DNA of 25,242 nt, taken from a virus. This document shows positions 3,588 through 25,242 of this stretch, one piece after another. Numbering within the stretch: the first letter of the stretch is position 1; each line of letters starts with the position of its first letter. The stretch lies in IMG/VR virus record IMGVR_UViG_3300031658_000106, positions 1 to 25,242 of that record; one strand, 5' to 3'. Both the position numbers and the translations under genes were made by a program. A model generated the notes under the pieces. That model was not told the origin of the DNA. It searched no databases and saw nothing but the letters and a program-made list of their open reading frames with translations.

Positions 3588-3845
3588 TTAATAATCACGT
3601 TTTTCTTTGGACTTTTCTATGTTCCGTTTAGACCTTCTCGTTGCAGCCTTCCTAGACTCTCTACGTTTAGTGCTTTTGGATTCAAAGTGAGTCCTGCTTC
3701 TAAGTTCTTCAAAGAAGTTATCATTTTGCAATTTCTTCTTCATAATGCGTATTGCACCTTCGATGTTTCCATCACGAACTTCTACAGTCAAACCGCCAGT
3801 AGGTGGTTTCTTTTCAGTTTTTTTGTTGTACTTGTTAAATCCCAT
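3588..3845 (-). CDS. rpsU: Ribosomal protein bS21, phage-encoded
   Basis: An 85-aa homologue of the small-subunit protein bS21, which sits near the anti-Shine-Dalgarno end of 16S rRNA and helps mRNA recruitment. The core signature is clear: GLTVEVRDGNIEGAIRIMKK (residues 18-37), then ELRSRTHFESKSTKRRES (48-65) and a very basic tail (KAATRRSKRNIEKSKEKR). It is longer than typical bacterial bS21 (about 70 aa) because of an N-terminal extension rich in Lys. Start support: GAGGAAAAT before ATG. It lies 13 bp after tRNA-Arg(UCU), and its tail uses AGA and AGG codons. Phage bS21 genes are known from SAR11 phages. The likely role is replacing host bS21 on ribosomes to favour phage messages. Confidence 0.92.
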   Translation of the reverse strand: MGFNKYNKKTEKKPPTGGLTVEVRDGNIEGAIRIMKKKLQNDNFFEELRSRTHFESKSTKRRESRKAATRRSKRNIEKSKEKRDY

Positions 3846-3858
3846 ATTTTCCTCAAAT

Positions 3859-3935
3859 TGGCCTGCCCTGTAGGATTCGAACCTACGACCTACAGCTTAG
3901 AAGGCTGTTGTTCTATCCAACTGAACTAAGGGCAG
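3859..3935 (-). tRNA. tRNA-Arg (anticodon UCU), CCA encoded
   Basis: Folds as a full cloverleaf by eye: acceptor CTGCCCT/AGGGCAG (7 perfect pairs), D-stem GTTC/GAAC, anticodon stem ACAGC/GCTGT with loop CTTCTAA (anticodon TCT), T-arm GTAGG/CCTAC with TTCGAAT loop, discriminator G and encoded CCA. It reads AGA codons. It lies between the glycine-zipper gene (15 bp) and bS21 (13 bp) and must be cut from a shared transcript. Confidence 0.95.
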
Positions 3936-8429: not shown

Positions 8430-9635
8430 TTATGCAGCGTAGACATCATCCCACTTGCCTGTTAATCCAGCAACCTCATATTCAGTCACTTTATTCTCAA
8501 AGAAGTTGGTATGGTCTGCGCCATTCAGCACCCACTCCAACCACGGCAGAGGATTTTCTTTTACTTTGTAGTTTCCTTTGAGTCCAAGTTGAAGAAGCCT
8601 TCTGTCAGTAATGTATCTAACATACTGTTTGACTTCCTTTTCACCTAGTCCCTCAATGTCACCAAGCTTGTACGCCAAGTCAATAAACCTGTCTTCCAAC
8701 TTAACAGCGTTCCTTGCCATCTCATATATATGTCCCTTGAATTCATCGTCTACGATACGGGGGTGTTCTGCACAATATGCCTTGAATAGTTTTGCATTAC
8801 CTTCAACATGGATAGATTCATCACGAATACTCCACTCAACAACCTTACCCATACCTTTCATCTTACCATAACGCTGAAAGTTTAACAGCATTACGAATGA
8901 TGCGAACAAGGCGACACCTTCATTCATTACTGACTTTGCAAGACACAATCCAAGTCCACGAACTGTATTCGGGTCACTGTCCATCATAAATTCAATCTTG
9001 TCAGCCATCTCTGTGTATTCCAAGAAAGCATGATACTCTGCGTCTGACAATCCAAGTGTTTCATTAAGTAGTGCATATGCACGTTGATGAATACCTTCCC
9101 TAGTTGCAAAAGAACCAAGCATGTTCCGTACTTCGTTGTTCTTAAACTTAGGAATAAATTGGTCGTAGTAGTTCTGTCCTACTGCAACATCTGACTGTGT
9201 GAATAGTCTAAGGATGTTTGTGACGTATTCCTTCTCGACTGCATTAACCTTACCAGATTTCCAATCAGCAACATCTTCAGACAAGTCAAGTTCATCTTCA
9301 ATCCAATGGACTTTCTCATGTCTTGTTGTGATTTCAACTGCCCAAGGGTAGTGAAATGGTTTGTAAGCTTCTGAGAACTCCAACAACCCTCCACCTTGCT
9401 TTTTCACAAAAGTATCTGCAACTGCAATAAACTGGTCGTATGAACCAACCAACTTATCATCAATAAAGATTTGTGGTACTGATCGAGCAGTGGGGTTTAT
9501 TTTTTGATAAAATGCAAGACGTTCTTCTTCGTTGTCCATCTTAATCTCTGTGTACTCATACCCATGCGAGTCGAACCAATGTTTCGCCTTCTCACAGAAT
9601 GGACAATGTGACTTACTGTATATTTCTACTTTCAT
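8430..9635 (-). CDS. nrdB: Ribonucleotide reductase beta fused to N-terminal glutaredoxin
   Basis: A 401-aa fusion protein. Residues 1-80 are a glutaredoxin: active site CPFC at 11-14, and RSVPQIF near 51-57 as the cis-proline loop. Residues 85-401 are a class I R2 subunit with all diiron ligands visible: Asp117 (WIEDELDLS), Glu180 and His183 (REGIHQRAY), Glu239 (NEGVALF), and Glu273 and His276 (IRDESIH). The radical tyrosine is Tyr187. R2 supplies the radical to NrdA for making deoxyribonucleotides, and the fused glutaredoxin would re-reduce NrdA's cysteines without a separate partner. I place the start at MKVEIYSK (9635), where AAAGGAAAAAAGAA precedes ATG. The open frame further upstream overlaps nrdA and is not needed. 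Confidence 0.95.
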   Translation of the reverse strand: MKVEIYSKSHCPFCEKAKHWFDSHGYEYTEIKMDNEEERLAFYQKINPTARSVPQIFIDDKLVGSYDQFIAVADTFVKKQGGGLLEFSEAYKPFHYPWAVEITTRHEKVHWIEDELDLSEDVADWKSGKVNAVEKEYVTNILRLFTQSDVAVGQNYYDQFIPKFKNNEVRNMLGSFATREGIHQRAYALLNETLGLSDAEYHAFLEYTEMADKIEFMMDSDPNTVRGLGLCLAKSVMNEGVALFASFVMLLNFQRYGKMKGMGKVVEWSIRDESIHVEGNAKLFKAYCAEHPRIVDDEFKGHIYEMARNAVKLEDRFIDLAYKLGDIEGLGEKEVKQYVRYITDRRLLQLGLKGNYKVKENPLPWLEWVLNGADHTNFFENKVTEYEVAGLTGKWDDVYAA

Positions 9636-9654
9636 TTCTTTTTTCCTTTTTTGA

Positions 9655-11478
9655 TCAGCCCTGGCAGGCTGTACACTCGTCTTGTGATTCCATTGTTTGT
9701 GTTTCAAAATCTTGTAATGCATCACGCGAAACTTTCATTGATACATTTTCTGCCTTTTGTGAACTTTCTGTTCTTAGGTAGTACAGACCCTTAGTTCCTA
9801 ACTTCCATGCAGCAAAGTGACTTCTATGTAAGTCTTTCTTGTCTGCGCCTGATGGGAAGAATAGGTTTAATGATTGTCCTTGACAAAGATACTCTTGTCT
9901 ATCTGCGGCCTGTTCCACTAACACCATCTGATCAATCTCAATTGCTGTTTTGAAAACATCTTTAACCTTTTGTGACAAAAACTCAAGATGTTGGACTGAA
10001 CCACCATGAGTAATAATATCTGACCAAACTTCGTCTTGGTTCCTACCAATCCTTCTTAGTTCTTGTTCTAAGTACTTGTTCTGCACTAAGTGAGAACCAG
10101 CGCGTGTACGATGCGTATATGCATTCGCCTTTGATGGTTCAATAGATGGAGAAGTTCCTACAATGATACTAGAGTTTGCATTAGGAGCAATCGCAAGTAG
10201 ATGTGCATTACGTCTACCAGTACCTCTCATATCAGGAGCCTCACCCTTCTCTGAACCTATGTTAACAGTTTCCTTGACTGCGCTGTCTTTGATATACTGG
10301 AACACCTCACGATTCAGTTCTCTTGCTTCTAGTGAATCAAAAGGAACTCTCTTCTTATGTAAGAGTGAATGCCAACCCATTGCACCTAGTCCAAGACTAC
10401 GTTCTTGAGTTGCAGAATATCTTGCACGACTAATCTCATCACCAGCATTGTCAATAAAGAATTGCAATACATTGTCTAAGAATCGAATGAGGTCTGCAAC
10501 AAGATTTGAATCTTTCCACTCATCATATTTCTCTAAGTTAAGAGAAGATAAACAACACACGGCAGTCCTGTCTTCTGATGTAGGAAGATGTATTTCATTG
10601 CACAAGTTAGAACCATGAATCTTCAATCCCTTGGCTCTCATCGTATGCGGTAACGCACGATTAGCTGTATCAATGAAGTTAAGGTATGGTTCACCTGTAC
10701 GATAACGCACTTCCAAAATCTGTTGCCACAAACTTCTGGCAGGCATACTTTCACGAACAGTATCTTCATGTGGGTCTTTAAAGTCCCATATCTCATTTCG
10801 TTCTACTGCTCGCATGAAGTTATCTGTGATATTGATTGCATGGTGCAAATTTAAGTTCTTACGATTGACATCACCTGTAGGTACTCGCATGTTAAGGAAC
10901 TCTATCAGGTCGGGGTGTGAGACATCCATATACGCCGCGTAAGAACCTTTACGAGTTCTACCCTGTCGATATGCCGTCATATCTGCGTCTACAGTATGTA
11001 AAAACGGCATTGGGCCGGGGGCCTTGTCAGAGATGGCACGAATGTCACTCCAATGTCCACCAACACCACCACCCTTAACAGACAACCATCGTAACTCTGC
11101 TGAGTGGTCGATTAGTCCTTCAAGTGAATCAGGTACATAAGTTAAGAAACATGAGATTGGTAACGCCTTTGCTTTAGTGCCAGGCATAGGAGCGTTTGAT
11201 AATACTGGGGATGCAAACATGAAGTGACCTTTAGACACTGCATCATAGATACGTTGTGCAAGGTCTAAGTCGCCATTACAATATGCAACTGACGCCCGTG
11301 CATATGCTTGTTGGGGTGATGCTTCTTGTTCTGTACAATAATAATCTTTTAGAAGTTTATACGCTTGTTCACTTAAATCCTTATCTCTTGTTTTATCTAT
11401 TCTTATACCAAGGTGGTCATGACCATTGTCTACCTCAGTCTTTGGGAAGGGTAGTATAACTTCTGCAAGACTTTTCAT
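9655..11478 (-). CDS. nrdA: Ribonucleotide reductase alpha, no ATP cone
   Basis: A 607-aa class I catalytic subunit that reduces ribonucleotides. Redox cysteines are Cys110 (LPISCFLTY) and Cys308/309 (VCCLSSLN). The radical site is N291-L-C293-N-E295 (SNLCNEI). Tyr-Tyr of the radical path appears in GLYYLRT, and the C-terminal shuttle pair is CTAC (602-605). E. coli NrdA has about 760 residues. Here the N-terminal ATP-cone is missing and the protein begins close to the catalytic barrel. Loss of that domain normally removes inhibition by dATP, which suits a virus that floods the cell with dNTPs. GGAG lies about 10 bases upstream of ATG, and nrdB follows after 19 bp. Confidence 0.96.
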   Translation of the reverse strand: MKSLAEVILPFPKTEVDNGHDHLGIRIDKTRDKDLSEQAYKLLKDYYCTEQEASPQQAYARASVAYCNGDLDLAQRIYDAVSKGHFMFASPVLSNAPMPGTKAKALPISCFLTYVPDSLEGLIDHSAELRWLSVKGGGVGGHWSDIRAISDKAPGPMPFLHTVDADMTAYRQGRTRKGSYAAYMDVSHPDLIEFLNMRVPTGDVNRKNLNLHHAINITDNFMRAVERNEIWDFKDPHEDTVRESMPARSLWQQILEVRYRTGEPYLNFIDTANRALPHTMRAKGLKIHGSNLCNEIHLPTSEDRTAVCCLSSLNLEKYDEWKDSNLVADLIRFLDNVLQFFIDNAGDEISRARYSATQERSLGLGAMGWHSLLHKKRVPFDSLEARELNREVFQYIKDSAVKETVNIGSEKGEAPDMRGTGRRNAHLLAIAPNANSSIIVGTSPSIEPSKANAYTHRTRAGSHLVQNKYLEQELRRIGRNQDEVWSDIITHGGSVQHLEFLSQKVKDVFKTAIEIDQMVLVEQAADRQEYLCQGQSLNLFFPSGADKKDLHRSHFAAWKLGTKGLYYLRTESSQKAENVSMKVSRDALQDFETQTMESQDECTACQG

Positions 11479-13013: not shown

Positions 13014-13314
13014 TTTGCATGTTCTTTATCCGATCTTGCATTTCTACCATCTTAACTTCTTGTCGCCAAAGACGAGCTTCTAACTCATCCATCTTCTTAG
13101 TAACAGATGGATACTTCTTTCTCCAAGCATCTTCGGGTTGTCTTAACCATTTCCAGTTATATTTATCAACTAAGTAATCTACAAACTGATCTATTTTTCC
13201 GTAACACCAAATACCCATGTGGGTATCTTTGAAATATGCAAGGAATGCTGCACCAAGCAATGCGCCAATTATACTGGTATAAATCCAGAGTGTACTATCA
13301 AATATTTCCATCAT
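13000..13314 (-). CDS. Small membrane protein of the lysis-like cassette, 104 aa
   Basis: Start ATG 13314 overlaps the lipase stop (ATGA). A GTG five codons earlier has no better ribosome site. Residues 7-26 are a single hydrophobic segment (STLWIYTSIIGALLGAAFLA). They are followed by a soluble part with aromatic residues (YNWKWLRQPEDAWRKKYP) and a C-terminal coiled coil (MDELEARLWRQEVKMVEMQD). The N-terminal anchor plus cytoplasmic coiled coil could partner with the next protein, which carries its anchor at the opposite end. A holin or antiholin role is possible but unproven. Confidence 0.7.
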   Translation of the reverse strand: MMEIFDSTLWIYTSIIGALLGAAFLAYFKDTHMGIWCYGKIDQFVDYLVDKYNWKWLRQPEDAWRKKYPSVTKKMDELEARLWRQEVKMVEMQDRIKNMQNGNS

Positions 13315-14006
13315 CGTCCAAGCGTCCACTTAACATAGTTCTGTATACCATGATCTTTGATACCATCTAAGGCATCACTTCTCCAACCTCTCCACCTGTC
13401 CTTAATCATTTGCCATAATGTTAGTGTTCTTATGTTACCATAAAAATTAATGTATGTCAAGAGGCCATGGTGTTTATATCCCATTAAAAATAATGGTACT
13501 TTTGTTACAACATCATTGTTGTTCACAACTCTGTGATGTGGGGTTTTAATGTTCTTAACGAAACTCCGAGTACCAACACGGGGAGAACCAAATGTAGTTA
13601 GTAGTTCTACATCTTCCATTTCTTCAAACCTTGAACATGCAATAGTTGCCATAGCAGCACCTAATGAATGTCCAGTGATGTAGAATTTCTTTCTAGAGTG
13701 TTTACTTCTATGTGATACTAGTTGGGCGTATAACTTATTTAGTTCACCAGCAAATCCAGAATGGACTAAACCATGTGTCATGGAGAAACGGGGTATTGCA
13801 TTCAAGTCTGCTATAAGGTCAGATAGTTCATTTGGTTCTGTTCCTCTGAAACAAAGAATATACTCATTCTTATTCCATACTGCATGACATTGTGCGCCAT
13901 CTCTACTGAAGTACTTATGAGTGTACCCCATTTCTTTACACTTTACTTTTGCCTGTTTACCATCTAGGTATGCATTAGCTGCCAGTTGCGACATTAGATG
14001 TATCAT
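13311..14006 (-). CDS. Class 3 lipase-like alpha/beta hydrolase
   Basis: A 231-aa protein of the fungal lipase-like (class 3) family. The nucleophile elbow is GHSLG at 112-116 (Ser114). Asp165 (NNNDVVTKVP) and His219 (DGIKDHGIQNY) complete a likely triad. LCFRGTEP near 51-58 is the oxyanion region. There is no signal peptide. It lies between the spanins and two membrane proteins, so it is probably produced with the lysis genes and may attack membrane phospholipids once the cytoplasmic membrane opens. ATG 14006 is chosen because AAGGAG is 6 bases upstream; a GTG at 14009 is only 3 bases away. The substrate is not deducible. Confidence 0.9.
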   Translation of the reverse strand: MIHLMSQLAANAYLDGKQAKVKCKEMGYTHKYFSRDGAQCHAVWNKNEYILCFRGTEPNELSDLIADLNAIPRFSMTHGLVHSGFAGELNKLYAQLVSHRSKHSRKKFYITGHSLGAAMATIACSRFEEMEDVELLTTFGSPRVGTRSFVKNIKTPHHRVVNNNDVVTKVPLFLMGYKHHGLLTYINFYGNIRTLTLWQMIKDRWRGWRSDALDGIKDHGIQNYVKWTLGR

Positions 14007-14391
14007 CACTTTCTCCTTTAGTTGTTACTGCCTTCTCATAGTATAGAATAATCTGTTTTTGTTGTTCTATATATCGTCTTAACTCTGCAATATTTTTTGA
14101 TAAGTTCTCGTAGTCCTTTACAGATATAGCAATGTATGAATCTATTCCGTTCTTAGCTTCGAATTCTCTTTTGAATTCTTCTAAATTCTTGTCTGGTGAT
14201 ACAACATGGATAGTTATATCATTCAACTGTACTGTCTTGGGATGTGCTACAATAGGAATCTGTCTCTCAACAACCTTCGTAACAGTTACAATTTTGGGTT
14301 CTGGGATTAGTGATGAACAGCTAGTCAGCAGTACTGCTGCTGTCAGAACTAGTAATAGACACAAGGTCGTCCCATAGTTTGTCTGTCGCAT
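13975..14391 (-). CDS. Outer-membrane spanin lipoprotein (o-spanin)
   Basis: A 138-aa predicted lipoprotein. Residues 4-24 are a signal peptide ending in the lipobox L22-T-S-C25, and the mature protein would be attached at Cys25. The rest contains VVERQIPIVAHPKTVQL and a C-terminal helical stretch (NIAELRRYIEQQKQIILYYE) suited to coiled-coil contact. ATG 14391 is preceded by AGAGGA, and a TTG at 14409 is less likely. The first 71 bases overlap the i-spanin gene in another frame, as in lambda Rz/Rz1. It would bind the i-spanin across the periplasm and fuse inner and outer membranes at lysis. It is larger than most Rz1 proteins, closer to T4 PseT.2-type o-spanins. Confidence 0.82.
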   Translation of the reverse strand: MRQTNYGTTLCLLLVLTAAVLLTSCSSLIPEPKIVTVTKVVERQIPIVAHPKTVQLNDITIHVVSPDKNLEEFKREFEAKNGIDSYIAISVKDYENLSKNIAELRRYIEQQKQIILYYEKAVTTKGESDDTSNVATGS

Positions 14392-16809: not shown

Positions 16810-17220
16810 TTAAACGATTTTGGTTTTTACGAAATGTGTTCCATTAGTTATAACGTGTTCAATCTCTAAAGAAAGACCACCTTCAACTTTGTGGGAAATA
16901 CCATCATCATTGATGTCATCTCCATTTCCATCTTTACCGAATCGTCCACCATACTGCGTCATTGGCATTGATTGTTTACCTGCCTCAGACAAAGTGACAT
17001 CACCAAAAGTAAGTCCCAACTTTTCTAGTCGATCTCTTACTATATTCAAAGCGTGTTCTGGCATCAGATATTCCATCTGACCCATTGCACCTAAGAATGA
17101 ATTGATTCTATCAATTGTCTTGGGGTTAGCAATATCATTAACTCCATCATCACCAGATTTAAGGTGAGCAGCCATTTGATGGTCTTGATATGACTCATTG
17201 AACTTGCTAAAGTTTTTCAT
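16810..17220 (-). CDS. Leader-bearing protein with Asp-rich calcium-like loop
   Basis: A 136-aa protein. The N-terminus MKNFSKFNESYQ resembles the capsid-targeting leader (MK-x-[FY]-x-x-F-x-E). The centre is helical (NSFLGAMGQMEYLMPEHALN). DGNGDDINDDGISH (about 99-112) is an EF-hand-like Asp/Asn/Gly loop. The end (EIEHVITNGTHFVKTKIV) is beta-like. It overlaps the upstream gene by ATGA. A capsid-internal location is predicted only from the leader, and metal binding only from the loop. Confidence 0.65.
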   Translation of the reverse strand: MKNFSKFNESYQDHQMAAHLKSGDDGVNDIANPKTIDRINSFLGAMGQMEYLMPEHALNIVRDRLEKLGLTFGDVTLSEAGKQSMPMTQYGGRFGKDGNGDDINDDGISHKVEGGLSLEIEHVITNGTHFVKTKIV

Positions 17221-19248: not shown

Positions 19249-19256
19249 TATTTATC
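19249..19256 (-). promoter_or_regulatory. Late promoter-like box GATAAATA
   Basis: One mismatch from TATAAATA, overlapping the end of the HAD gene, with the predicted start near 19243. It leaves a leader of about 24 nt containing AAAGGAG before the 344-aa structural gene. Confidence 0.45.
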
Positions 19257-19764
19257 TAAATCCAATTCTCTTCAATTGAGAAATGGTGTTGTTGGGGGAT
19301 GTATGATGAATCCCAATACCGCCGGCGTTCTCCCATTCTTTGATATTTTTGATATAATCATCAATCAATATGTTAGGTTGATTACCAGTTGTGGCATATC
19401 TTTGCTTGTCTGCTCTCTTTACGAGATTAACTCTACCAGTAGGTTTGGCGTTTTTGGACAACCAAGCCTTCTTGCCAGGCCTACTGTTCCCATCATTACT
19501 AGAGTATGCAGATAAAATGTTTGCTTTATATTTGTTAATAAACTTCCACATCTTTTCGCTGCCGGGCATCCAAGGTAAGGTATGCCAAAAATCTTTCATA
19601 CCTCGTATGTCTTCCCAGCGCTGTTCTTTTTCAACTTTATCAAATTGTTTACCAGTAAGGTTCTTATACCCACCTAGTAAATCAACAATAACCATATCCA
19701 TGTCACAGTAAATGTCTGGCAACTCTTTTTCTGAAATTTGTGTGAGTTCCACAAGACGTTTCAT
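19252..19764 (-). CDS. HAD-family phosphatase, 5'(3')-nucleotidase-like
   Basis: A 170-aa protein. HAD motif I is at 19-25 (YCDMDMV, Asp21 nucleophile and Asp23). Motif II/Ser lies in NILSAYSSND (82-91). The Lys region is GKKAWL, and the acidic motif IV is LIDDYIKNI (Asp135/Asp136). Cap residues include WMPGSEKMW. This set fits 5'(3')-deoxyribonucleotidases, which remove phosphate from nucleoside monophosphates. It also has an 18-residue front (MKRLVELTQISEKELPDI) not needed by the fold, which resembles the capsid leader and includes I-S-E. It sits among virion genes rather than with nrdAB. The substrate is not proven. Confidence 0.85.
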   Translation of the reverse strand: MKRLVELTQISEKELPDIYCDMDMVIVDLLGGYKNLTGKQFDKVEKEQRWEDIRGMKDFWHTLPWMPGSEKMWKFINKYKANILSAYSSNDGNSRPGKKAWLSKNAKPTGRVNLVKRADKQRYATTGNQPNILIDDYIKNIKEWENAGGIGIHHTSPNNTISQLKRIGFR

Positions 19765-19766
19765 GT

Positions 19767-20411
19767 TTAATCCTTTTCTTTGACATTTACATCGACTTTA
19801 GACATTGGCTGTCCTGTCATCGTTGTTCCATCTTTATCTTCAACACATGCACCTTCATGGGCTTCTTTACCGCAATCTTCACACATGACTTTTTTCTTTC
19901 CATCAGACTTATCAGCAGCTTCGCCCCACATGGTACTGATTGCACTAGAATATCTTTGCATAATCATCGACTTCTGCATGTCATCACTACTGTAGTCAGC
20001 ATTACCTTCATCTAATGACTCTGTACCTTCAGTGTCAGCAGACTCATCTACTTGATAATCTTCTACCTTATACTTCTTGCCAGAAACTACAAAGGTCTTT
20101 TCACCCTTTTCTTTTGCAGCATTAAGTGCGCCAGTGAATGCATTACCTTCTTTTTTGGCGATTGACTTAGAGATTGCCTTACGCTTCTTGTGTAAGAACT
20201 CATCAGAACTATCAGTGTCACCATCGTTGTCGATGTCTTTGTCTTTGCGGTCATCAAACTTCTTTTTAACTGCTTTAGGTTGAACTGCGTCCAAGCCTTC
20301 ACCATCGTCAGACTTATTGTTTTTATTTGTTTCTTCCAGTGAAGCCATGCTAAGTGCGTTAGCTACAGCACTCTCAAGACTTTCTGGTTTTGTTGTGAGA
20401 TACTTAGCCAT
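19767..20411 (-). CDS. Modular virion-type protein with EF-hand loop and zinc knuckles
   Basis: A 214-aa protein. MAKYLTTKPESLESAV at the front contains S-L-E. A calcium-binding-like loop DIDNDGDTDSSD lies at 59-70, followed by KKRKAISKSIAKKEG and a module FTGALNAAKEKGEKTFVVSG. The linker EGTESLDE (128-135) is shared with the 584-aa protein. Near the end, CEDCGKEAHEGAC (177-189) has zinc-knuckle-like cysteines. These modules recur, as I recall, in shuffled order in marine T4-like phage structural proteins. A head-internal or scaffold role is likely, and its enzymatic function, if any, is unknown. Confidence 0.7.
   Translation of the reverse strand: MAKYLTTKPESLESAVANALSMASLEETNKNNKSDDGEGLDAVQPKAVKKKFDDRKDKDIDNDGDTDSSDEFLHKKRKAISKSIAKKEGNAFTGALNAAKEKGEKTFVVSGKKYKVEDYQVDESADTEGTESLDEGNADYSSDDMQKSMIMQRYSSAISTMWGEAADKSDGKKKVMCEDCGKEAHEGACVEDKDGTTMTGQPMSKVDVNVKEKD
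20008..20030. repeat. EGTESLDE-coding repeat, copy in the 214-aa gene
   Basis: DNA related to 21545-21580 and 21788-21823. It encodes the same EGTESLDE peptide on the minus strand but in a different gene. Confidence 0.75.
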
Positions 20412-20412
20412 T

Positions 20413-22167
20413 TTAATCTTCCTTATTATTTAATTTATTAAGTGTTTGTTTTGCTTTTGCAATTTGCAACTGCAACTGAGCAATACGAGTGATTTTACGA
20501 TCATCTTGATTTTGTTCAGCGTCTTCATGTTTAGCACCTTTGTTGTTAAACATACCCAGAGAAATAGTAGATTCTTCAAATTCTTCAGAACCCCATCCTT
20601 CTACGATCTTTTTCTTAGCAAAATAGTCTGCTATTGCTTGTGCAGTATTAAAAGACTTTTGTCCCTTTACACCTGTAATAGATGCGAAGAAACTATCTGA
20701 ACCACCATCAAAGTCAGCAGTTCCTATTTCCTTACCTTTGAGCATGATTTTGATATCATCACCTTTTTTGACTATCTTGTATTCTCCCTTACCAGCAAGA
20801 ACTTTTTCGTCAAGTGGCAGAGAGTGTTGTCCAGATTTCCGAACCTTCTCTGCATCCTTCATAGTCTTGTAAGGTTTGCCTACGTTTACAAACTTACCTT
20901 TAGTCATAACCTGTACTTGGAAACCTGAGTCACCGAGTTTATCAACACCTAAATTCTTACGAATTTTGTCTTGATTGCGATTACCCAAATCAATGATACG
21001 AATTGTGCCTTCTTTAGATGCTTCATCCATCTCAGAATCTTTCATTATAGAACCATCGGGCATTCTGTGATGTCCAGCTGGTACTTCATCTTTCTTAGAA
21101 TTCATTTTACCATATGATTCATTCATTGAATCCCAATAAGAGGCGACATCCTGTTCTGTACCATGTCTTTTAACGAAGTCTTTCTTTGAAATTTTGTCAT
21201 CCATACCATGAGTATATGCTTTGATAAAATCTTTCTTTGACAATTCTTTAGCAGTGCGTTTCTTATCATCTGCACGTTTGTCTTCATTAACATCATCCAC
21301 AGACTCTTTGTACATGTTTAACTCAAACGAAGTACCAGTGTTGTAAACCTGTACTTGAATGCCTTTACCATTCTTACCCTTTAATCGGTATGAGTTGGTT
21401 TTACCATTCTTTGGTTTAGCTGGGCCCATTGCAACCTTATCGTCAATTTCATTTGGGTCGATTTCGATTCCAAATTTCTTCTTTGCGTATTCATATGAAT
21501 GTTGCATAGCACCAGAGAATGTTTTGTGGTACAAGTCATACTTCTCATCTAATGATTCAGTACCTTCTTCAAATGATTCATTCTTTTGCCCTTCACTTAC
21601 TTTTCTATCAACCTGTTCCCAAATATCATTTACCTTACTAAGAAGTGCCGACATCTTCTTCATCTCTGAGTCAACCTTAACAGTTAAGTTAATAGTTTTG
21701 TTAAGAGCACTGCCTGGCTTTAAAACTTTCATTAGTGTATTTAAAGATTTGTCAGTATCCTTCCACGGAAAAGACAAAGTAACATCTTCATCTAATGATT
21801 CAGTACCCTCTTCAACTGATTCATATGTCAATCCGTCTACCAATGAATTGATTGTTTTGAAATCAAGTTTCATTATCTTTGCAATTTCTTTAGCAGACTT
21901 ACCCATCTTAATGTGGTGATGAAGTTCTTTCATCCTACCTTCTTGCATATCAACATCTTCGTTCTGTTTCTTCAGAACTGCGGCAACTTTAGGATTATCA
22001 GACAACCCACTCTTAATCTTTTCGATAGCATCAACTGCACCCGACATATTATTGCCAGCATATCGCTTATCTGAAGCGATACCAATTGCCATCTTAATTT
22101 CCTTTGCAGAGAATCCTTCACGGACTTGCTCTAGAGCCTCATTCATGCTCATACCATATCTTGTCAT
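20413..22167 (-). CDS. Modular internal virion protein with repeated LDE linkers
   Basis: A 584-aa mosaic without a known enzyme core. It begins MTRYGMSMNEALEQVREGFS. A helical module follows at 78-110 (MKELHHHIKMGKSAKEIAKI, HTH-like). The linker ESVEEGTESLDE is at 116-127, a helical module at 130-190, and a second linker ESFEEGTESLDE at 197-208. Next comes a module with YDLYHKTFSGAMQHSYEYAK, then a Lys/Asp-rich region. Two beta modules follow (RIIDLGNRNQDKIRKNLGVD, 390-409; LPLDEKVLAGKGEYKIVKKG, 450-469). The end is a Gln/Lys helix. The LDE strings match the [LI]-x-E core of T4 prohead protease sites. AGGAAAAGTAAA precedes ATG. I propose a core or cargo polyprotein, but this is inference. 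Confidence 0.7.
   Translation of the reverse strand: MTRYGMSMNEALEQVREGFSAKEIKMAIGIASDKRYAGNNMSGAVDAIEKIKSGLSDNPKVAAVLKKQNEDVDMQEGRMKELHHHIKMGKSAKEIAKIMKLDFKTINSLVDGLTYESVEEGTESLDEDVTLSFPWKDTDKSLNTLMKVLKPGSALNKTINLTVKVDSEMKKMSALLSKVNDIWEQVDRKVSEGQKNESFEEGTESLDEKYDLYHKTFSGAMQHSYEYAKKKFGIEIDPNEIDDKVAMGPAKPKNGKTNSYRLKGKNGKGIQVQVYNTGTSFELNMYKESVDDVNEDKRADDKKRTAKELSKKDFIKAYTHGMDDKISKKDFVKRHGTEQDVASYWDSMNESYGKMNSKKDEVPAGHHRMPDGSIMKDSEMDEASKEGTIRIIDLGNRNQDKIRKNLGVDKLGDSGFQVQVMTKGKFVNVGKPYKTMKDAEKVRKSGQHSLPLDEKVLAGKGEYKIVKKGDDIKIMLKGKEIGTADFDGGSDSFFASITGVKGQKSFNTAQAIADYFAKKKIVEGWGSEEFEESTISLGMFNNKGAKHEDAEQNQDDRKITRIAQLQLQIAKAKQTLNKLNNKED
21545..21580. repeat. 36-bp in-frame repeat, ESFEEGTESLDE linker
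   Basis: Differs from 21788-21823 at only about two positions across 36 bases. It encodes NESFEEGTESLDE at residues 196-208. The near-identity at DNA level argues for recent duplication or recombination. Confidence 0.85.
21788..21823. repeat. 36-bp in-frame repeat, ESVEEGTESLDE linker
   Basis: Partner of 21545-21580, 243 bp away. It encodes ESVEEGTESLDE at residues 116-127 of the 584-aa protein. Confidence 0.85.
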
Positions 22168-22196: not shown

Positions 22197-24065
22197 TTAG
22201 CCTTTCATTAAGTCTGTTACTGACTTACCAGACCAAAACTTACAAGACCAATAACCAGCGGTAGTCTTATCCTTCTTTTGATCACAATTGTGTCTAGCAC
22301 GAAATGCTTTTCTTCTTGCAGGGTCATCACGTTTTATTTCCATATTCGGATCACCAAATTCTACTTTAACGACATTTCCTTTATCGTTTCTTACATAAAC
22401 TTTGTACTTCTTAACATCACCCTTTGTTGGGTTATTTAGTTCTTTTCCACTCTTATCATCCTTTTCAGTCATTTCACCCCAAGCATTCTGAAGTTGGACT
22501 GATTCTCCCCGAACTTGTTTTGCGAGGTCGGCATCTGCCTTTCCCCAAGTTCCAGAAGATTTGGTAACAAAAGAGTTAACTCTTGCAAAGGCCCACTGTT
22601 GTGGTGTTGTGCCTGGGCGGTGTCCCGTCTTCCATGCAACCATACCCCTGTCGTATACTTTCTTGAGAATACCATATGGCATACCAGACTTTTCTGCTTT
22701 CGTAACAAGTCCTTCAATCTTCTCATCTAATTGAAACTCTTCTTTTGGTACACAGTTAGGAACAGTCTTGCCATTCTTAGTCTTTGTACCAACTTGTTTG
22801 TGAGTGTCCCAACAAGGGTCATCCTCACCAAACATCTGCTTGAACTTCTTGGTGTGCTTAGATGGTTTAGTATCTGCATCCTTATCGCCTGGCGCTGGGC
22901 CATCTTTGGATTTTGCAAAATGTGCTGCACGTTTCTTCTTAGTCGAAACAGACATCTCATCACCATCAGCATCCTTTGCATAATACTTTGCTGGTTCTGT
23001 ACCTTTTCTATCTTTAATATCTTTGTCTTGCTTTACGCCTTCGTACAACCGACTATATGTTCTTGCCAAAGTCCTTCCATCAATACCACTGAATGTTTTT
23101 GCAATCTTTGTTGCATAGTATAAAATGTCATGGGAAAGGTCGTTCTCTTTTTTCTTTCTATCAATTACTGTCTTGAGGACTTCTGCGGCCTTCTCATATC
23201 CTTTCTTCTTTGTAGTCTTTGAAATGACTTGGCGAATAAGTTCACCTGTAGACATTTCATCCAGTTCATACAACCACTTCTTATGAGTAGTTCCATCTTC
23301 TTCTGAGAAGACAAGATAATTAGTACCTCGGCGAATAATCTTACCACTCACACCACTGTATGATTCAGTAACACTATCTCCGATATTCAGTATCTCTCCA
23401 CGAATATACATATCGCGAGCAACATCTTCTTCAGTGAATGTTTCTGTTCTGGGAACAAAAGACTCACGAACTCCCATGAACTTACGAACATCTTTAAATA
23501 GAGACATTCCTTGTCCAAACCCTTTGGGAAGTCCATTCTTGAAAGAATCGTAATCATCAGATATTGCTGCGGCTCTCATCTTAGATGCAGACATACCAGA
23601 CACACCTTCTGAATCTGGGTCACGTTCACCAGCAGAGATAACTTGAATGTTTTCAAACTCGTAGTATCCGTGTCTACCTTCCATTTTGTTGTACTTCTTG
23701 AGCAATCCATCAAACTCTGATACACGATCAGAACCCACAACCATTATTACTGAGGTGTGTCCTTTGTGGTATAATGACACCGCAATCTCAAATACCTGCC
23801 TTGACTTATCAACCAAGATATTTCTAGCATGTTTTGGGAACATCTTTTTCATGTATGCGACTTTCTTCACATAGGGAAGAGGGTCTTTCTTTGCATTCTC
23901 TGAATGAGATACAAAGACATAATAAGGAGCACCAGCATTATTTGATGACTGTTTTGCAACTGCGTCCAATAACTTTTCGTGTCCTATAGTGGGCGGATTA
24001 AATCTACCGAATGTAAAAACACAAGTATCGCCACGAGCTTCCGTAATATCCTTAAAACTTCTCAT
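22197..24065 (-). CDS. Mosaic protein: nucleotidyltransferase head plus phage modules and DUF5872-like domain
   Basis: A 622-aa protein. Residues 1-9 (MRSFKDITE) are a capsid-leader-like front ending I-T-E before Ala10. Residues about 12-200 are a HIGH-type adenylyl/cytidylyltransferase: GRFNPPTIGHEKLL (20-33), VGSDRVSEF (110-118), and SGMSASKMR (156-164, ISSTxxR-like). 238-267 is a KOW-like module (GKIIRRGTNYLVF). 347-442 is a Lys/Asp-rich phage module (DIKDRKGTEPAKYYAKDADG ... CWDTHKQVG ... NCVPKEE). About 449-520 is DUF5872-like (MPYGILKKVYDRGMVAWKTG, WAFARVNSFV). The end has RHNCDQKKDK and YWSCKFW. NMN or pantetheine-phosphate transfer is plausible. LDE occurs at 268-270 and 446-448. Confidence 0.8.
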   Translation of the reverse strand: MRSFKDITEARGDTCVFTFGRFNPPTIGHEKLLDAVAKQSSNNAGAPYYVFVSHSENAKKDPLPYVKKVAYMKKMFPKHARNILVDKSRQVFEIAVSLYHKGHTSVIMVVGSDRVSEFDGLLKKYNKMEGRHGYYEFENIQVISAGERDPDSEGVSGMSASKMRAAAISDDYDSFKNGLPKGFGQGMSLFKDVRKFMGVRESFVPRTETFTEEDVARDMYIRGEILNIGDSVTESYSGVSGKIIRRGTNYLVFSEEDGTTHKKWLYELDEMSTGELIRQVISKTTKKKGYEKAAEVLKTVIDRKKKENDLSHDILYYATKIAKTFSGIDGRTLARTYSRLYEGVKQDKDIKDRKGTEPAKYYAKDADGDEMSVSTKKKRAAHFAKSKDGPAPGDKDADTKPSKHTKKFKQMFGEDDPCWDTHKQVGTKTKNGKTVPNCVPKEEFQLDEKIEGLVTKAEKSGMPYGILKKVYDRGMVAWKTGHRPGTTPQQWAFARVNSFVTKSSGTWGKADADLAKQVRGESVQLQNAWGEMTEKDDKSGKELNNPTKGDVKKYKVYVRNDKGNVVKVEFGDPNMEIKRDDPARRKAFRARHNCDQKKDKTTAGYWSCKFWSGKSVTDLMKG

Positions 24066-24457
24066 TTTGCAGTTCCCACTTCTTTAACCTTTTTCAGTCT
24101 TTCTAATTCTTTCAGTCTAAGGGAAACCATAAGCTTCTTTGCAATCTTTTTAACTGCTGCACCCTTAGTCTTCATAATCCGATTGTCAAGATTCTGTCTC
24201 TGCATTAGAGATAGATTCGCATAATCATTTGCATCCATACCAGCAAACTTTTTAATAATAAGTTGTTTTGCCGCTTTGTTCGCACGTTGTTTTATCTTAC
24301 CTTCAGGCGCTTTCTTTAATGCGTTTCTTGCCTTCTTAGCCTTAAAGGCAGAAGACTGAGCCATCTTCTTCATTCTTTGACCCATCTTACGTCTTGCCGC
24401 AACAGATAATGCCTTACGTTCAGTCAGATTTAATATTAAGTCATCAAATGTTATCAT
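24062..24457 (-). CDS. Very basic internal protein, 131 aa
   Basis: About one third of residues are Lys or Arg. Blocks include RKALSVAARRKMGQRMKKMA, KAKKARNALKKAPEGKIKQR and KIAKKLMVSLRLKELERLKK, all helical. The front (MITFDDLILNLTE) contains L-T-E before the basic body. The pattern LTERKALS...RRK...R.AARAA..KK is one I recall in T4-like marine phages beside head genes. The charge suits DNA binding inside the capsid or a core protein. It overlaps both neighbours by ATGA. Confidence 0.7.
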   Translation of the reverse strand: MITFDDLILNLTERKALSVAARRKMGQRMKKMAQSSAFKAKKARNALKKAPEGKIKQRANKAAKQLIIKKFAGMDANDYANLSLMQRQNLDNRIMKTKGAAVKKIAKKLMVSLRLKELERLKKVKEVGTAK

Positions 24458-25242
24458 TTATCCCATGCCTTGATTGCAGTAAAGTTGTTAAAACTAAACT
24501 CCATTCTGTCTACTAGTTTAACTGCATCTCCAGATACTCTATCAATTGCAACATATCCTTCTGGATTAGTAACTTTGAATCCATTTGCAGTTTTAATAAA
24601 GGTATCAGTCAATCCCTTAACACTATTTAGTTTGCTTACAACTCCCATCTTTGCGTCAACCAAGTGTCCTTGGAATGCAATGATGTTCTCTAAATTCTTG
24701 GTGTGCTTCTTTACTTCACGAAGATACTCAGTCTGAAGATTAGTGTATTTATCCTTACCCTTATCACTCTTTACTTTGTCTATTTGTTTCTGGATTGCAT
24801 CAAATACCCACTTCTCGTATCCCTTTGCATGTCCTCTAGGGTCAGTAATCTTTGCGCCTTGACGAACCTTACTATTATTGTACGTCTTTAACTGAGCACC
24901 AGCAAGTGTTCCTGAGAATACTTCTTGTAGTTTTAAGAACTTGTTCAATAATGGTGCGTTTATTTTAGCAAAGGTAGAACCAGCAGATGATAGAGATTTA
25001 GTAACGGCCGTAGTTTCACTTGCAGTCATTGTCGCCTTACCAGATACGTCCTTATAAGTTGCATCATCCATCCATACAGATGAAGGTGTAGATAGTTTAC
25101 TAATGTTTGCACCGAAGTTTGCTTTCATTGCTTGCAAGTCACTACCAGCATATGTGGTGTGCCATACGACACCAATCTTAGATGATTTGATTTTCTTACC
25201 CAAATCCGATTTAACATCAACTGCATAGACGATAGTGTTTGG
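24454..25242 (-). CDS. DUF6267-like phage protein, 5' part outside window
   Basis: The frame is open to the window edge. The TTG at 25203 is inside a longer reading frame (upstream codons give NTIVYAVDVKSDL), so the gene starts beyond 25242. The visible part has GKKIKSSKIGVVWHTTYAGS, PSSVWMDDATYKDVSG, YNNSKVRQGAKITDPRGHAK and FQGHLVDAKMGVVSKLNSVK. It ends with GYVAIDRVSGDAVKLVDRME and FSFNNFTAIKAW. I recall this as DUF6267, common in T4-like marine phages, usually next to virion genes. Its activity is unknown, and the missing N-terminal part would be needed to judge any enzyme motif. Confidence 0.8.
   Translation of the reverse strand, partial: PNTIVYAVDVKSDLGKKIKSSKIGVVWHTTYAGSDLQAMKANFGANISKLSTPSSVWMDDATYKDVSGKATMTASETTAVTKSLSSAGSTFAKINAPLLNKFLKLQEVFSGTLAGAQLKTYNNSKVRQGAKITDPRGHAKGYEKWVFDAIQKQIDKVKSDKGKDKYTNLQTEYLREVKKHTKNLENIIAFQGHLVDAKMGVVSKLNSVKGLTDTFIKTANGFKVTNPEGYVAIDRVSGDAVKLVDRMEFSFNNFTAIKAWDK

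Follow-up and report, generated by a model that had tools for sequence, protein, structure and literature searches.

What is a nucleotidyltransferase of the HIGH superfamily doing at the front of a long modular phage protein, and does it serve the infected cell as a metabolic enzyme or travel inside the virus particle? We address this question for one gene in a 25,242-base IMG/VR fragment (the window, meaning the whole stretch of DNA analysed), for which an earlier note had suggested a role inside the phage head. Virion-borne nucleotidyltransferases are already published, as cytidylyltransferase or NMNAT of cyanophages, and because those papers both report and discuss them, head packaging is not new as an observation. 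What we add is the leader peptide as a likely packaging mechanism, together with its presence on other virion proteins.

Results

The gene and its surroundings

The gene is a single open reading frame of 622 aa with the end coordinates of the earlier note, corrected to the minus strand (24065 to 22197); a plus-strand reading of the interval is ruled out by stops throughout. The nearest isolates are Methylophilales phage Melnitz (60% identity across 95% of the protein) and Pelagibacter phage HTVC008M (42%); both phages belong to the Kyanoviridae. The protein matches 545 phage records, with cyanophages predominating, and at least ~600 IMG/VR sequences, and the family is widespread among T4-like marine phages. 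In phage C48C1 (L190:2516) the annotated start is too late; the in-frame upstream sequence VIKNFSQYLLEE restores the leader and the first strand. Features of the window are collected in Table 1.

Table 1. Features of the nucleotidyltransferase gene and its neighbours in the window (slashes mark predicted cuts)
Feature	Residues	Position	Strand	Basis or remark
Whole ORF: leader, HIGH nucleotidyltransferase, mosaic C-terminal modules	1-622	22197..24065	-	ORF; relatives in IMG/VR and phage isolates
Capsid-targeting-like leader MRSFKDITE/A, predicted cut after Glu9	1-9	24039..24065	-	Conservation; T4 ipII/ipIII; virion-detected orthologues
HIGH-superfamily nucleotidyltransferase domain	10-201	23463..24038	-	PF01467; AlphaFold2 pLDDT 87; Z 12.5-14.1
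GRFNPPTIGH, (T/H)xGH motif	20-29	23979..24008	-	Invariance in relatives
SGMSASKMR, ISxTxxR-like motif	156-164	23574..23600	-	Invariance in relatives
Small conserved beta-rich module	214-277	23235..23426	-	phrog_4808; strands 241-264 in low-confidence full-length model
LDE between modules, possible internal prohead-protease-type site	446-448	22722..22730	-	Weak, post hoc
DUF5824 module	457-513	22527..22697	-	PF19141, E 2.3e-17
Cys-containing C-terminal module	542-622	22200..22442	-	Occurs also in unrelated marine phages
131-aa basic protein MITFDDLILNLTE/R, 4-base overlap with nucleotidyltransferase start		24062..24457	-	Melnitz homologue MKKFSELTSELIE/R
Upstream DUF6267 gene, cut by window end		24454..25242	-	PF19782
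Block protein of 584 aa, downstream, containing EEGTESLDE linkers		20413..22167	-	Sequence
HAD / 5'(3')-deoxyribonucleotidase-like block protein		19252..19764	-	phrog_2643; PF06941 sub-threshold
Block protein MKNFSKFNES		16810..17220	-	Sequence; Melnitz homologue MKNFKNHIAE/E

The gene order DUF6267, nucleotidyltransferase, nrdA is kept in Melnitz. What the earlier note called the virion block differs from the gp3-gp23 structural cluster of T4. It extends from primase-helicase (gp41) to nrdA and is syntenic with Melnitz; in S-SCSM1 seven genes of the gp41-nrdA segment are annotated as virion proteins. The DUF6267 protein (window 24454-25242; L006:4362-5612) carries KWDGAPA and EGFVA...VKLVDR, which recall those of covalent nucleotidyltransferases and ligases (motifs I, IV and V); since a profile search of the PDB gave no match, its reading as a ligase stays a motif-based one. 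It is fused to the nucleotidyltransferase in S-PM2.

Two proteins labelled as cytidyltransferases (window 19767-20411, phrog_764; L088:24422-25843, SSM1_191) show no visible HIGH motif, and their labels were probably transferred from neighbouring modules. The segment adjoining the block encodes a lipase-like protein (GHSLGAAMA, 13311-14009); a distant lipoprotein-lipase homologue, ORF157, is described among the virion proteins of S-CREM1 (PMC9964418). Elsewhere in the window are a phage-encoded ribosomal protein S21 (3588-3845, TIGR00030 above cut-off) adjoining a tRNA-Arg(TCT) gene (3859-3935), and a ribonucleotide reductase beta subunit with an N-terminal glutaredoxin fusion (8430-9725, NF009398 above cut-off).

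The nucleotidyltransferase domain and the tail

The CTP_transf_like family PF01467 (gathering score 21) matches residues 18-124 with 29.3 bits when the whole protein is searched, and the N-terminal 215 aa score 31.5 bits. Every residue of GRFNPPTxGH (bar x) and GMSASKMR is invariant in 18 relatives, with Thr in place of the first His of HxGH. An AlphaFold2 model of residues 1-215 (pLDDT 87) has the fold of a HIGH-family adenylyltransferase, and its closest counterparts are PPAT (Z 14.1), archaeal NMNAT (13.5), NadM (12.9) and NadD (12.7), where rows no more than 1 Z apart were counted as ties. Profile, invariant motifs and modelled fold thus bear out the description of the first ~200 residues as a complete-looking nucleotidyltransferase, and residues ~10-201 apparently form an intact HIGH-superfamily adenylyltransferase domain, judged by motifs and predicted fold. 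The structural comparison with NMNAT and PPAT proposed in the earlier note recovers the family fold but does not separate NMNAT, PPAT and NadD.

The remaining ~420 residues, which had been called virion-type modules, do contain additional modules. Relatives share the one at residues 214-277, whereas further along, in the middle and at the end of the tail, modules are shuffled between them; we would call these shuffled cargo or linker modules rather than structural domains. For the supposed DUF5872-like domain Pfam gives DUF5824 instead, and we reject the former assignment. The Cys-containing C-terminal domain is confirmed, with Cys594 and Cys608 conserved; a DUF5754 match at residues 551-592 is below cut-off. 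The full-length model, for which the alignment was too shallow (pLDDT 53), was taken as a hint only. We also considered internal LDE tripeptides as protease sites and rejected them, as the Melnitz block shows no enrichment of LDE alone (p=0.38); sites of the EE-x-LDE type are weakly enriched there (p=0.018, post hoc).

A leader resembling the T4 capsid-targeting sequence

The protein begins MRSFKDITE/ARGD, to be compared with MKTYQEFIAE/A of T4 IPII and IPIII; T4 IPI begins MKTFKEF and has ITE/A further on. In T4 the first ten residues are enough for packaging, positions 4 and 7 acting in targeting and 8 and 10 in cleavage. The leader studied here is one residue shorter (F4-I7-E9 versus Y4-F7-I8-E10), and it does not match a strict T4-derived pattern, although the aromatic residue at position 4, the hydrophobic residue at 7/8 and the Glu at the cut are found as F4, I7 and E9. 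M1, F4 and E9 are invariant in 18 relatives, and across the IMG/VR relatives listed the sequence drifts while M-x-x-F-x-x-(F/I/L)-x-E is mostly kept. Directly before the nucleotidyltransferase, phi-x-E occurs in 47 of 50 diverged relatives versus 22.2 +/- 3.3 in shuffles, and phi-x-E/A also precedes the domain in some larger ORFs that contain it internally (FLPE/A, EVHE/A, HINE/A).

The exact T4 spacing is found in the virion-detected orthologues, namely those of S-SM1 (MKKFSAFLNE/A), S-SCSM1 (MKSFLQFLKE/A) and S-CREM2 (MKNFSSFLTE/A), and in the adjacent DUF6267 gene, the full copy of which, in the identical contig L006, starts MINFNSFITE/D; the DUF6267 protein of S-CREM2 lacks a leader and went undetected in virions. 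The orthologues of P-SSM2, P-SSM7 and S-RIM8 carry the same leader as the virion-detected ones, and stand-alone orthologues of P-HM1, RaK2, GAP32 and PA5oct lack it. In S-SM1 and S-SCSM1 the leader lies ~70-100 residues from the nucleotidyltransferase, so its conservation does not depend on that of the enzyme. A review describes leaders of this kind on other basic proteins of close T4 relatives, and in the accessible parts of the literature on the capsid targeting sequence and internal head proteins we found none covering such leaders in cyanophages.

For a test on a whole proteome we wrote a leader pattern from T4 IPIII, [FYLW]..F[ILMVF].E lying in the N-terminal 30 residues, which among 55 T4 genes picks out only ipII and ipIII. 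In S-CREM2 this pattern, fixed only after N-termini had been looked at, is carried by 7 of the 50 proteins that mass spectrometry detected in virions and by 1 of 167 undetected proteins (Fisher p=1.6e-4), one of the seven, gp122, looking accidental; looser patterns are less specific (p=0.032 and 0.08). The carriers include a SAM hydrolase, an APH-like kinase, a Cas9-like nuclease and the nucleotidyltransferase, as well as two small virion-detected proteins (genes 6, 12, 13 and 14 of L089, S-CREM2 1-50000, and genes 136 and 154 of L087). Melnitz gene 2 (L002:69-1118), a RimK-like ATP-grasp protein, starts LTQKFSQFITE/E, a T4-like leader, and judging by sequence it is possibly another packaged enzyme.

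Orthologues in virions

Mass spectrometry of S-SM1 virions detected a 'citidylyltransferase' of cluster T4-GC190 (PMC3037559). An NMNAT, ORF91, was detected in virions of S-SCSM1, in a paper that mentions S-CBWM1 too (PMC9602691), two peptides were detected for S-SZBM1_140 (PMC9146016), and S-CREM2 ORF154 gave three virion peptides, its authors discussing delivery to the host and cautioning about possible co-purification (PMC10665884). The PA5oct record flags four neighbouring genes, but not the nucleotidyltransferase, as detected by mass spectrometry. We found no virion mass spectrometry of the window phage or of Melnitz in the literature, so these data are those of orthologues.

Substrate

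The NadR equivalog TIGR01526 scores 14.7 bits (curated cut-off 341) and CoaD TIGR01510 13.3 bits (curated cut-off 103.3), the phage NadR profile phrog_3462 matches weakly, and profile searching against PDB sequences yielded chance matches only. We rejected any substrate assignment from profiles or fold, where all nucleotide adenylyltransferases tie; with both cut-offs missed and the fold comparison tied, assignment stops at an intact enzyme of the HIGH-family adenylyltransferase type. In a published survey phage NadM is always accompanied by NadV. Five complete relatives yielded no NadV homologue (the window's own genome being a fragment), which leaves a phage-encoded nicotinamide-salvage pathway unsupported, and salvage by way of NadV was rejected.

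Discussion

The T4-like tag at the front of the nucleotidyltransferase makes it probable that the protein is packaged in the particle and delivered along with the DNA, and the suggestion of head packaging in the earlier note is supported both by this leader and by the virion data for orthologues. Taken as a whole, the best explanation, to which we give a probability of about three in four, is that the nucleotidyltransferase is a capsid-targeted cargo enzyme and belongs to the internal head proteins of a phage of the Kyanoviridae. The leader MRSFKDITE would act like the T4 capsid-targeting sequence and draw the precursor into the prohead core, where a prohead protease of the gp21 type would probably cut after Glu9, and further cuts may occur at phi-x-E sites between modules. 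The freed enzyme would then lie loose in the head, enter the host with the DNA at infection and be catalytically active there.

The closest parallel is that of IPI, IPII, IPIII and Alt of T4, with which the T4-like head is shared; the internal proteins also share the short phi-x-E/A N-terminal leader, and Alt is likewise an enzyme, of NAD/ADP-ribose chemistry. What sets the present protein apart is that the cargo consists of a HIGH nucleotidyltransferase followed by mosaic C-terminal modules, that its leader is one residue shorter, and that its cleavage and injection are predicted. The T4-GC190 proteins of S-SM1, S-SCSM1 and S-CREM2 belong to the same nucleotidyltransferase family, and in S-SM1 and S-SCSM1 their genes have the same genomic surroundings, but they have a 10-residue leader and a linker before the enzyme and no DUF5824 or Cys modules; the accessible portions of the published accounts of these virion proteins do not read a targeting leader. 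Phage NadM and NadR, which occur with NadV (for example in KVP40) or in NARP1, share the HIGH fold, whereas our protein has no Nudix or P-loop kinase fusion and another module architecture, and the five complete relatives gave no NadV homologue. In phrog_455 fusions (for example S-PM2d138) DUF6267 and the nucleotidyltransferase form one ORF, whereas here each has its own gene and a small gene lies in between.

An ordinary auxiliary metabolic enzyme for the infected cell would be expected to reach virion preparations only by co-purification, the concern raised by the S-CREM2 authors (PMC10665884), and its supposed leader would be the first helix of the nucleotidyltransferase domain. The leaderless stand-alone orthologues agree with such a role, but the protein was detected independently in virions of several cyanophages, the leader is retained across the 70-100-residue gap, and the same leader stands on further S-CREM2 proteins that were detected in virions and whose folds are unrelated; we therefore regard this explanation as unlikely. 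Still less probable is an inert, non-catalytic fold serving as a structural or scaffold module of the head. The long mosaic tail and the position of the gene within a block of virion proteins would suit such a module, yet it is the HIGH-family motifs that are all invariant in diverged relatives and the flanking modules that vary.

The alternative of a packaged enzyme with another reaction shares packaging with our preferred explanation and differs in the reaction only, which might be PPAT-like, cytidylyltransferase-like, or the processing, jointly with the neighbouring DUF6267 protein, of a nucleotide signal or modified end. PPATs top the fold comparison, though tied, the Thr replacing the first His gives a TxGH that we take to resemble PPAT, no NadV homologue accompanies the enzyme in the five complete relatives, and KWDG and EGFV...VKLVDR of the DUF6267 neighbour or fusion partner may recall nucleotidyltransferase or ligase motifs. 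Against these points stand the weak match to phage NadR and the first motif, GRF and not GTF, presumably as in archaeal NMNAT, NadM and NadR, and we give this alternative not quite an even chance. Within the capsid-cargo explanation the most likely reaction is adenylyl transfer to NMN or NaMN, boosting or repairing NAD early in infection, which we put forward tentatively, at somewhat below even odds; an NMNAT-like substrate is a guess. The cofactor metabolism or defence against NAD depletion suggested in the earlier note is accordingly a possible role.

Conclusions

A targeting leader makes testable the question whether the NMNAT-like enzymes of cyanophage virions are cargo or contaminants. 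It predicts which proteins of the abundant marine T4-like phages are packaged and where they are cut, and it predicts that an adenylyltransferase reaches the host ahead of all phage gene expression. It is conceivable, though on balance doubtful, that the Kyanoviridae use one T4-type leader as a general label for an injected kit comprising the HIGH nucleotidyltransferase, the DUF6267 ligase-like protein, the RimK-like ATP-grasp protein, a SAM hydrolase, a kinase and a Cas9-like nuclease. If so, sequence alone would suffice, through the leader, to predict effectors delivered by the virion, and the nucleotidyltransferase and DUF6267 pair would be an injected module for nucleotide or NAD repair.
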